This document shows positions 16,502 through 42,611 of a stretch of 64,000 bases of DNA, piece after piece. Under the pieces are notes generated by a model, which searched no databases, was not told the origin of the DNA, and saw only the letters and a program-made list of their open reading frames with translations. Position numbers and translations under genes: made by a program. The DNA is from Thermoflexibacter ruber (lineage in GTDB: Bacteria; Bacteroidota; Bacteroidia; Cytophagales; Thermoflexibacteraceae), in assembly GCF_900113045.1 (NCBI RefSeq), contig NZ_FONY01000025.1, forward strand, positions 1-64,000, read 5' to 3'. How positions within the stretch are numbered: the first letter of the stretch is position 1; each line of letters begins with the position of its first letter.

Positions 16502-18904
16502 ATGAGTATGAAGCATTTTTATTCCCTTTTTAAAACGTATGCACTGATAATGGTGGTGATTAGCACTATGGCTGTGAGTGCATTGGCACAGAGCGAAAAT
16601 ACAGATAAGTCCTATTTTAGGCAGTTAGGGCAGGAACTCCCTACGCCTAACAACTATCGTACAGGCTCAGGGGCGCCTGGACACGAGTACTGGCAACAGC
16701 GAGCAGACTACGACATCAAAGTAGAACTTGATGACGAGAAACAGCGCATTACAGGGGCAGAAACCGTTACTTATTTCAATAATTCTCCAGACCCTCTGAA
16801 CTATATTTGGTTGCAGCTTGACCAAAATATTTTGGACAAAGAATCTGATTATTACAAAACTCAAACAGGTTCTGGGCGACGCGGAGGAGTAAGCCAATTG
16901 ACTGATAAAATTACAACCAGCCAAATCAAAGCCTTAGCAGACCGCAGTTTTGACGGTGGGCATAAAATCCAATATGTAAGAGATGTAGCTGGTAATCCCT
17001 TGAAATACACCATAGTAAAGACAATGATGCGTATAGACCTTCCTAAACCTCTACGCAAAGGAGAAAAATTTGTGTTCAATGTGGGTTGGTACTATAATGT
17101 GAATGACCGCTTGAATCCTGCATTGGCGGCAGGGAGCAGAGGCGGTTGCGAGTTTTTCCCTGAAGATGGAAATTGGCTCTATTCTATTACGCAGTGGTTT
17201 CCAAGAATGGCAGTTTACGATGATTACAACGGATGGAATCACAAACAATTCTTAGGGCAAGGTGAATTTTCTTTGACTTTTGGAAATTATAAAGTAGCGA
17301 TTACTGTACCTTCTGACCACATAGTAGGAGCAACAGGGGTACTGCAAAACCCTCAACAAGTGCTTACTGCCGAGCAACAAAGACGCTTTAACGAGGCTAA
17401 AACAGCAAAAAAACCTGTGGTAATAGTTACTCAAGCAGAAGCGATTGAAAAAGAGAAAACAAAGGCAAAAGATAAGAAAACTTGGATTTACCAAGCTGAG
17501 AACGTAAGAGATTTTGCTTTTACAAGTTCCCGTAAGTTCATTTGGGACGCAATGGGCGTAAATATCGGTGGGAAAACTGTGATGGCAATGTCTTACTATC
17601 CCAAAGAAGCAAATCCGCTATATGGTCAATATTCTACCGAAGCGGTAGCACACACATTGAGAGTTTATTCCAAATATACTTTTGACTATCCTTACCCTGT
17701 GGCTATTTCAGTAGAGGCTTCTAATGGCATGGAGTACCCCATGATTTGCTTTAATTATGGTCGTCCTGAAAAAGACGGAACTTACTCAGATAGAATCAAG
17801 TACGGTGCTATTTCTGTAATTATTCACGAAGTTGGTCATAATTTTTTCCCTATGATTGTAAACTCTGACGAAAGGAATTGGACTTGGATGGACGAGGGGC
17901 TAAATACTTTCCTCCAATTTTTAGCAGAACAGGAATGGGATAGAAACTATCCTTCGCAAAGAGGTTTCCCTAAAAATATTGTAGACTACATGAAATCTGA
18001 CCAATCTGAATTAGAGCCAATCATGACCAATTCGGAGTCAGTAAAGCAGTTAGGACCTAATGCCTATGCCAAACCTGCTACTGCCTTAAATATTCTAAGA
18101 GAAACTATTTTGGGTCGTGAACTTTTTGACCACGCCTTCAAAGAATATTCCAGAAGGTGGATGTTTAAGCACCCCAACCCTGCTGACTTTTTCCGCACTA
18201 TGGAAGATGCTTCAGGCATAGACTTGGATTGGTTCTGGAGAGGGTGGTTTTTCACTACTGACCCTGTAGATATTTCCATCGATAGGGTAGTAGAAGGTGT
18301 TTTTGATACTAAAAACCCAGAAATAGAAAAAGCAAGATTGCGTGCAGAGCGTGCCTCTAAACCTGAGGAGTTGGGCATACAACGCAATAGAAAAGATGTT
18401 CCTCAAACTGCGGTAGAAGCAAATCCCGATTTGTTGGATTTTTACAATAGCTATGACCCCTTAGCAGTTACCGAAGCGGACAAAAAAGCCTACCAAGCCT
18501 ATATCGCTTCGCTTTCTCCAGAAGATAAAAAATGGTTAGAATCACAAAAGTATTTCTACCAAGTAGATTTTTCTAATGTAGGCGGGTTGGTAATGCCCCT
18601 GATTGTAGAGTTTGAATATGAGGACGGTACAAAAGACGTAGAAAGAATCCCTGCGGAGATTTGGAGAATTGATAATAAAAAAGTAAGTAAGATTTTTGTA
18701 AAAGACAAAAAGGTCAAATCTTTTACACTTGACCCTTACTCCGAAACTGCTGACATAGACATCAGCAACAACTACTTCCCAAGACGTTCACAACCTACTC
18801 GTTTTGAATTGATTAAACAAAATTCGTACATGAGAGGCGTAGGTGGAGCAAATCCTATGCAACAACAAAAACAAGAGAAAAAGACAAGTGGAGGCGGTAA
18901 TTAA
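16502..18904 (+). CDS. secreted M1 family metallopeptidase
   Basis: An 800-residue zinc aminopeptidase-like protein. The first 30 residues are a signal peptide ending in ALAQ. The gluzincin zinc site HEVGHNFF is at 442-449, with the third ligand in WMDEGLN (Glu465). The N-terminal beta-sandwich (about 60-330) and long C-terminal region with YDP and acidic/basic stretches match the Bacteroidota M1 group. The end (QQQKQEKKTSGGGN) is low-complexity and does not look like a T9SS sorting domain, so it is probably periplasmic. It most likely degrades peptides for nutrition. A shared hairpin terminator follows. Confidence 0.92.
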   Translation: MSMKHFYSLFKTYALIMVVISTMAVSALAQSENTDKSYFRQLGQELPTPNNYRTGSGAPGHEYWQQRADYDIKVELDDEKQRITGAETVTYFNNSPDPLNYIWLQLDQNILDKESDYYKTQTGSGRRGGVSQLTDKITTSQIKALADRSFDGGHKIQYVRDVAGNPLKYTIVKTMMRIDLPKPLRKGEKFVFNVGWYYNVNDRLNPALAAGSRGGCEFFPEDGNWLYSITQWFPRMAVYDDYNGWNHKQFLGQGEFSLTFGNYKVAITVPSDHIVGATGVLQNPQQVLTAEQQRRFNEAKTAKKPVVIVTQAEAIEKEKTKAKDKKTWIYQAENVRDFAFTSSRKFIWDAMGVNIGGKTVMAMSYYPKEANPLYGQYSTEAVAHTLRVYSKYTFDYPYPVAISVEASNGMEYPMICFNYGRPEKDGTYSDRIKYGAISVIIHEVGHNFFPMIVNSDERNWTWMDEGLNTFLQFLAEQEWDRNYPSQRGFPKNIVDYMKSDQSELEPIMTNSESVKQLGPNAYAKPATALNILRETILGRELFDHAFKEYSRRWMFKHPNPADFFRTMEDASGIDLDWFWRGWFFTTDPVDISIDRVVEGVFDTKNPEIEKARLRAERASKPEELGIQRNRKDVPQTAVEANPDLLDFYNSYDPLAVTEADKKAYQAYIASLSPEDKKWLESQKYFYQVDFSNVGGLVMPLIVEFEYEDGTKDVERIPAEIWRIDNKKVSKIFVKDKKVKSFTLDPYSETADIDISNNYFPRRSQPTRFELIKQNSYMRGVGGANPMQQQKQEKKTSGGGN

Positions 18905-41231: not shown

Positions 41232-41909
41232 ATGAAAAAAACAACCATTTTACTTGCCACTATGCTCTGTCTTACAAGTGCTTATGCATAAGTAGTAACA
41301 GTGAGTAATGGTCAGTCCCCTGTCAAAGCACTTTATCAGCACTGTGCTAATGAAATGCTCATCAATATAAGCAATTATCCCGCAGAAGAAGTATCTTTCA
41401 AAGCGGAAGGAGCAGAGTTAATTTTAGGAGAGAAACAAGGGGAAATAACCTTAATACCTCGCGATTTCAAAGCTACACTCAAGATTTTTTATAAAGATAG
41501 CCTTCTCGCTACGGAGATTTTTCCAGTAAGGCTTATCCCTAAACCTGAACTTCAAATGTACGTTGGCAATAGCACCTTGCCTCACAGTTTTCCCAATGAA
41601 ATAAGCAAGGTAGAACTTAACCAACTCAGGATACACGCTCAAGCACCAGAGTACTTTGAGAATAGCGTACCCAAAGATGCTCAATTCCAAGTGAGCCTTA
41701 TAGAAGTTTCTTTGGCGAGAGAAAGAAAACTGATAGGTAGTCTTACCGTAAGCGATTCGGAAGTAATCAACTTAGAAAACTTGATAAAAAGTGCCGAGAT
41801 AGGAGATAGGTTGATTATAGAAATTAAACGAATAGAAAGAATGACTTACAAAGGACACTGGGAAGAAAGCAAAATAAGTAATCCTGTTTTCATTATTAAC
41901 ATAAAATAA
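41232..41909 (+). pseudogene. GldM C-terminal-like protein with a stop codon at the signal-peptide boundary
   Basis: The frame from ATG at 41232 reads MKKTTILLATMLCLTSAYA, a perfect signal peptide, then TAA (41289-41291), then continues without interruption for about 205 codons (VVTVSNGQSPVKALYQHCAN onward). Its downstream tandem paralogue has Gln at the equivalent place, so CAA changed to TAA is the simplest explanation. The mature part resembles the GldM C-terminal domain. A GTG at 41301 could start a cytoplasmic product without a signal peptide, but that seems poorly functional. Alternatives: sequencing error, nonsense suppression, or phase-like switching. Confidence 0.7.
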
Positions 41910-41936
41910 TTTTTTCACTATCAAAAAACCAAAACC

Positions 41937-42611
41937 ATGAAAAAAATAACTTTATTGTCTGCATTTTTGCTGATTAGCTTTTTTGCTTGGACGCAAAAAA
42001 GCACGATTTCTTATCATGCCGCTACCGTGAAGGCTTTGTACCTCAACTGTGGGAATGAGTTATACGTAAGTGCTAACAACTGCTCTAATCCACAAAGCCT
42101 AAGATACGAAGCAGATAACGCCGAACTTATCACTGACCTAAGTGCCAATAGAATTACCGTAGTACCCAAAGCGGCAAAGGTAAGCATTCGAGTATTTGAC
42201 GGTGATAGCCTGATTTCTACAGAACATTTTCCTGTTAGACTTTTGCCAAAACCAGAAATTACAGTCTTTATAGGAACTCTGGAACTACCTATCAAAGAGG
42301 CTTTTGTAGAAAAAAGCCAATTAGCAGAACTAAGCGTAAAAGCCTTAGCAGGGCAAGGAATGAGAGATGCTATGCCCAAAGACATGAGATACAGAGTACG
42401 TGATTTTAATGTTTACTTATACAGAGGAGAACAGAAAATCAATGAAATCAACGTACAAGATGAGCAGGTGCAACTTAGTGATTTCTTGAAAGATGCTCAA
42501 AAAGGAGATAAGCTAATGATAGAAGTAAAAAAAGTACAAAGATTGAATTTTAAAGGGGAAGTAGAAGATGTTAAATTTGGAATGGCAAACTTCCAAGTTA
42601 CAATTGGTTAA
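41937..42611 (+). CDS. GldM C-terminal-like periplasmic protein
   Basis: A 224-residue protein with a signal peptide (MKKITLLSAFLLISFFAWTQ). The body follows the pattern of the GldM C-terminal domain: VKALYLNCGNELYVSANNCS, then FPVRLLPKPEITVFIG, then RYRVRDFNVYLYRGEQK and LKDAQKGDKLMIEVKKV. In GldM this domain is part of the T9SS/gliding motor and spans the periplasm; these small free-standing versions have no proven role. It is about 40 percent similar by eye to the disrupted copy upstream, with only 27 bases between. No membrane helix or sorting domain. Confidence 0.78.
   Translation: MKKITLLSAFLLISFFAWTQKSTISYHAATVKALYLNCGNELYVSANNCSNPQSLRYEADNAELITDLSANRITVVPKAAKVSIRVFDGDSLISTEHFPVRLLPKPEITVFIGTLELPIKEAFVEKSQLAELSVKALAGQGMRDAMPKDMRYRVRDFNVYLYRGEQKINEINVQDEQVQLSDFLKDAQKGDKLMIEVKKVQRLNFKGEVEDVKFGMANFQVTIG

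Follow-up and report, generated by a model that had tools for sequence, protein, structure and literature searches.

The window analysed here, a 64,000-nucleotide stretch of the Thermoflexibacter ruber genome (contig NZ_FONY01000025.1), carries a short GldM-like gene whose frame is interrupted by a TAA codon directly after a signal-peptide-like start. Probably, a redundant copy of the gene has recently acquired this stop through a C-to-T nonsense mutation, which abolishes the secreted product. The change has the look of a commonplace, recent loss of function, or perhaps of a sequencing error, and not of a novel way of reading stop codons. In the proposed course of events, an ancestral CAA after the signal peptide would have become TAA by one C-to-T change. 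Translation would then end once the 19-residue signal peptide had been made, and this copy would yield no secreted protein; a product restarted at GTG 41301 or ATG 41355 would stay in the cytoplasm. The loss would be tolerated because an intact paralogue and a full-length GldM remain, and the copy, presumably redundant with its tandem neighbor, would stand at the outset of becoming a pseudogene.

Structure and domain content of the interrupted gene

Read on the plus strand, positions 41232–41909 translate as MKKTTILLATMLCLTSAYA, a TAA codon, 205 open codons beginning VVTVSNGQ, and a terminal TAA. The first 19 codons (41232–41288), from an ATG at 41232 to the residues SAYA, form a signal-peptide-like stretch with a hydrophobic core of 2.67 (8-residue mean) and a beginning like that of its relatives; the exact cleavage site is predicted on the strength of the A-x-A pattern and the Gln that follows in those relatives. 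The in-frame TAA occupies 41289–41291. The remainder of the gene (41292–41909, with its own stop at 41907–41909) contains neither another stop nor a frameshift over 205 codons, and its codon score (0.17) equals the median for coding 40-codon segments (0.17). This reading of the frame bears out the first-pass annotation, which had described a signal peptide ending AYA, the TAA, about 205 clean codons, and a normal stop, with no other lesion. Judged by its domains, its identity to a same-genus relative (48%), and its codon score, the part past the TAA is a real piece of a gene. Past the stop, the longest open reading frame that opens with a usual start codon begins at a GTG (41301–41909, plus strand, 202 aa) and lacks a signal peptide; we regard it as a mechanical ORF whose start is not thought to be real.

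An intact tandem paralogue of 224 aa lies at 41937–42611 on the same strand, separated from the interrupted gene by 27 bases (41910–41936). Its ORF, domains, and alignment give it a signal-peptide-like start ending WT|Q, followed by GldM third and fourth domains. Within its coding sequence, spanning the end of the signal peptide, there is a 10-pair inverted repeat with a T-rich tail (41977–42002), probably a chance occurrence. A consensus promoter scan came out near chance (6 found, 4.5 expected), and searches of solved structures by sequence returned weak, unrelated matches only (best E 0.5 and 0.36).

GldM has an established part in type IX secretion and gliding. The post-stop part of the interrupted gene passed the cut-off for Pfam GldM_4th (PF12080; E 6.7e-11, 43.3 bits, cut-off 24.6) and fell slightly below that for GldM_3rd (E 7.2e-5), which it matched over residues 11–68 of 205; the domain search matched neither the first nor the second GldM domain in this gene. 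Its score against the TIGR03517 GldM model was weak (56.6 bits, cut-off 180), which places it outside the GldM equivalogs, and its identity to the GldM of its own genome is 36% over 198 residues. From these domain matches, we take the gene to be the tail half of GldM as a separate small protein. Compared with GldM itself (PF12081, PF21601, PF21602, PF12080; TIGR03517), it has the third and fourth domains but lacks the first and second domains and the GldM membrane anchor, having a signal-peptide-like start instead. As a guess, short tail-only proteins of this kind could be putative soluble periplasmic partners of the GldM/GldN assembly.

Relatives and the codon at the stop position

Five places in the genome (5.5 Mb, 123 contigs) matched: the interrupted gene, its tandem copy, a full-length GldM with all four GldM domains (C59), a diverged short copy (C27), and a kinase fusion (C97). 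The fusion (L005 1453–3456, minus strand, G000:C97) is a 667-residue protein with a protein kinase domain and, on its C-terminal side, a GldM third domain; it has matches in frames of similar length in G001:C31 and G002:C259, a comparison of frame length alone. Outside the genome, the best matches are short single genes in two genomes of the same genus, G001:C39 (48%) and G002:C58 (41%), each one continuous frame through the stop position. A reading as two separate genes was rejected because both same-genus relatives run as one frame; the first-pass annotation had proposed this comparison as a check on its own account, which came through it unrefuted. Relative to these uninterrupted genes the in-frame stop is premature, as is characteristic of a nonsense pseudogene.

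All four relatives that were compared have CAA where the interrupted gene has its stop: the site reads TATGCCCAAGTAGTA in G001, TATGCACAAGCAGTA in G002, TGGACGCAA in the tandem copy, and CATGCTCAA in C27, vs. TATGCATAAGTAGTA in the interrupted gene. In the tandem paralogue the corresponding place aligns as T|CAA, in agreement with the earlier observation that the copy 27 bases downstream has a Gln after its signal peptide. The C27 copy (L004 1396–2075; G000:C27, about 17308–17987) has a signal-peptide-like start ending LHA|Q. It also has a single in-frame TAA of its own, with 18 open codons between this and a second stop about where the relatives end, and it is very diverged (tree branch 3.6), with the residue at its TAA lacking a confident alignment. 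In our reading, it is another duplicate in decay.

Most signal peptidase I substrates of Bacteroidetes are reported to expose a Gln, which is then converted to pyroglutamate (PMC5837995, PMC10653852), and more than 60% of predicted SPI substrates in P. gingivalis are reported to follow this habit (PMC5837995), here called the Q-rule. By pattern counts, the present genome follows it as well. The pattern ATGAAAAAA...GCN|CAA gave 78 matches vs. 6 for a reversed-pattern control, and 55 of the 60 in-frame, distinct starts of this kind that were examined have a hydrophobic core. Gln was also the commonest residue after the first A-ending candidate site (17 of 84 signal-peptide-like ORFs), a crude count, too rough to weigh, made in a 464-kb sample that covers about 8% of the genome (the window and 20 further stretches, one of them picked for the C27 copy). 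The corresponding pattern with TAA, ATGAAAAAA...GCN|TAA, gave 16 matches vs. 15 for its reversed-pattern control, and in a script screen of these 16 loci the interrupted gene alone was in frame with no earlier stop. Genome-wide, among genes starting ATGAAAAAA with signal peptides of the lengths built into the patterns, an in-frame signal peptide ending A|TAA was found once, in the window, vs. 55 ending A|CAA.

The CAA kept by the family, together with the Q-rule habit, puts the TAA one transition away from the family's codon. Since relatives have CAA at the Q-rule position, one C-to-T change would explain the stop, and the single-change origin put forward earlier is supported. Like Q-rule signal peptidase I substrates, the interrupted gene has an A-x-A motif followed by a codon that is Gln in relatives, but this copy has TAA instead of Gln and so falls outside the class. 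That the stop sits at the cleavage codon is not as remarkable as it first appears, because about 12 single transitions could create a stop in this gene by arithmetic on its codon counts (six CAA, two CAG, one CGA, one TGG counted twice, and the site itself), and the TAA site is one of them. More generally, the mature part of many exported proteins of Bacteroidota begins, under the Q-rule, with a codon that one transition can turn into a stop, and such a change eliminates the mature protein entirely.

Recoding, readthrough, restart, and base error

Recoding of TAA in this genome was rejected on the tRNAs, the stop-free domain matches, and the signal-peptide pattern search. The tRNA search gave 36 hits, all with ordinary anticodons according to ARAGORN and none of them matching TAA, TAG, or TGA, although the list is incomplete (Ile tRNAs are absent from it) and an unusual tRNA could be missed in a search that scored 150 of the 352 candidates seen at first look. 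Domain matches from this genome, 58 to Plug and 49 to response-regulator domains, contained no in-frame stops (0 of 107). In the 464-kb sample, 46 of 499 screened stops had coding-like sequence after them and the next ATG at least 12 codons away; the other members of this set appear to us to be gene boundaries of the usual kind or shadow frames, some of which probably start at a codon other than ATG, and the sample showed no second site at which a signal-peptide-like start is continued by the remainder of its protein. TAA was the commonest stop there, ending 137 of 210 long frames. One result leans toward recurring stops, namely the in-frame TAA of the C27 copy. The interrupted gene resembles known cases of stop-codon recoding or programmed readthrough in that a long open frame lies beyond an in-frame stop; it differs from them in that no suppressor tRNA was found, the stop is not conserved, and the genome yielded no second case.

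Several of these results also bear on leaky readthrough, whereby a near-cognate tRNA, most simply tRNA-Gln(UUG), would occasionally read the TAA and yield a small amount of exported protein. tRNA-Gln is near-cognate to UAA, the frame on the far side is open and codon-like, and Gln inserted at this codon would give the usual Q-rule N-terminus. We nevertheless consider such readthrough very unlikely, given a tRNA list holding no cognate suppressor, a genome in which the searches made found no second such site and TAA is the commonest stop, and a site that is not conserved, being CAA in both same-genus relatives. It is similarly hard to credit, and highly speculative, that low-level reading of TAA by tRNA-Gln would provide a dimmed dose of a correctly exported, pyroglutamate-capped GldM-tail protein, with this codon being a tolerated place for leaky stops in Bacteroidota; if that were true, a leaky stop would act as a built-in dial, with the tandem copy already supplying the protein in full dose. 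Restart past the stop, giving a functional cytoplasmic protein from GTG 41301 or ATG 41355, seems to us extremely improbable. While the GTG lies 9 bases beyond the stop in an open frame, the relatives hold the same domains behind a signal-peptide-like start, and a protein begun at ATG 41355 would lack some of the GldM_3rd match. The ORF from GTG 41301 has no export signal, in keeping with the earlier argument that a signal-less start there would misplace the product. An annotation pipeline might call a signal-less protein from this GTG or flag a pseudogene, and the pseudogene is the better call.

A wrong base in the draft assembly, with the true gene reading CAA and being intact, is unlikely, yet it has real points in its favor: the assembly is a draft of 123 contigs, and a single difference breaks an otherwise clean, coding-like frame at a codon that relatives have kept. 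Against it, no general excess of such errors is apparent (0 stops in the 107 domain matches, no second such site seen in the 464 kb), and a base error would not explain the signs of weaker constraint in this copy. What counts against a nonsense mutation is that an undamaged, codon-like frame is also compatible with an error or with a stop that the cell tolerates. Otherwise the gene resembles a nonsense pseudogene or null allele of a duplicated gene in having one premature stop, an otherwise intact frame, an adjoining intact duplicate, and uninterrupted relatives, and differs from one in nothing save that the stop strikes the codon right after the signal peptide. Of the three readings that the first-pass annotation had offered, a very recent change and an error remain good, while readthrough gains no support from the 36 tRNAs, the ATGAAAAAA starts, or the 464-kb sample.

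Age of the stop and recurrence in Cytophagales

If the stop is a nonsense mutation in a redundant copy, as we prefer, the lack of any further stop in 205 codons caps the neutral divergence since it arose at about 11–16% per site; the cap falls to about 3–4% on the assumption that one mutation in ten is a frameshift. The description of the change as very recent is therefore only bounded, at roughly 3–16% per site depending on the assumption, and weaker constraint may predate the stop. In a tree of the family, from which L005, L011, L012, L028, L031, L033, and L034 were left out because the motif filter did not find the domain in them, the interrupted gene groups with G001:C39 (support 97/95) on a branch twice as long as that of its partner (0.88 vs. 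0.43), and the uninterrupted G002 gene has a branch even longer than that of the interrupted one (1.06). Unique changes in the interrupted gene and the G001 gene numbered 28:10 with the tandem copy as outgroup, 32:13 with the G001 GldM, 28:16 with the GldM of the same genome, and 24:20 with the G002 gene; two of these four relative-rate tests were clearly unequal, with the interrupted gene the faster. Corresponding counts for the interrupted gene and the G002 gene (28:23 and 30:19) were not unequal. Sites conserved in GldM were changed more often on the branch of the interrupted gene than on that of G001 (8 of 40 vs. 1 of 33, p = 0.035), and on the former branch the conserved sites were changed less often than the others (8 of 40 vs. 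16 of 43), a difference that was not significant (p = 0.10). We read this as mild relaxation of the interrupted gene that may have begun before the stop arose, the stop being the most recent event. The additional changes do not settle the matter, because two of the four outgroup tests are near even, the G002 gene is about as fast, and the comparison within the branch is not significant.

When 148 genomes of the order Cytophagales were searched with a stricter pattern, MKK...AxA|TAA, 37 of them had matches, 50 in all. Of these rows, 34 were screened by script at their loci and the other 16 were sorted by eye on length and early stops. The script screen yielded four distinct in-frame cases besides the one in the window, with a hydrophobic core in one of them (G063:C130); three in-frame rows among the other 16 had downstream frames of 2, 5, and 11 codons and no hydrophobic core above 2.0. 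The G063:C130 case (L145/L110, 9638–9928) is a DUF4174 gene with a TAA directly after its signal-peptide-like start and a second in-frame TAA further on. An intact paralogue on the same contig (L146, 61382–61654) has Ser at the place of the first stop and Gln at that of the second. Because of the second in-frame TAA and the intact paralogue, we read this gene as a decaying duplicate. With one further core-bearing case in the order-wide screen, the type of lesion appears rare, and the other example also appears to be a decaying duplicate. Among the matches listed in a literature search, no title concerned a stop at the codon after a signal peptide.

More than one GldM-like match per genome was seen in G007, G026, G027, G032, G042, G047, and others of the order, and these matches include short frames of 225–254 codons in G026, G032, and G047. 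As several genomes hold multiple matches, some of them short, GldM duplicates and tail-only versions may have more than one origin.
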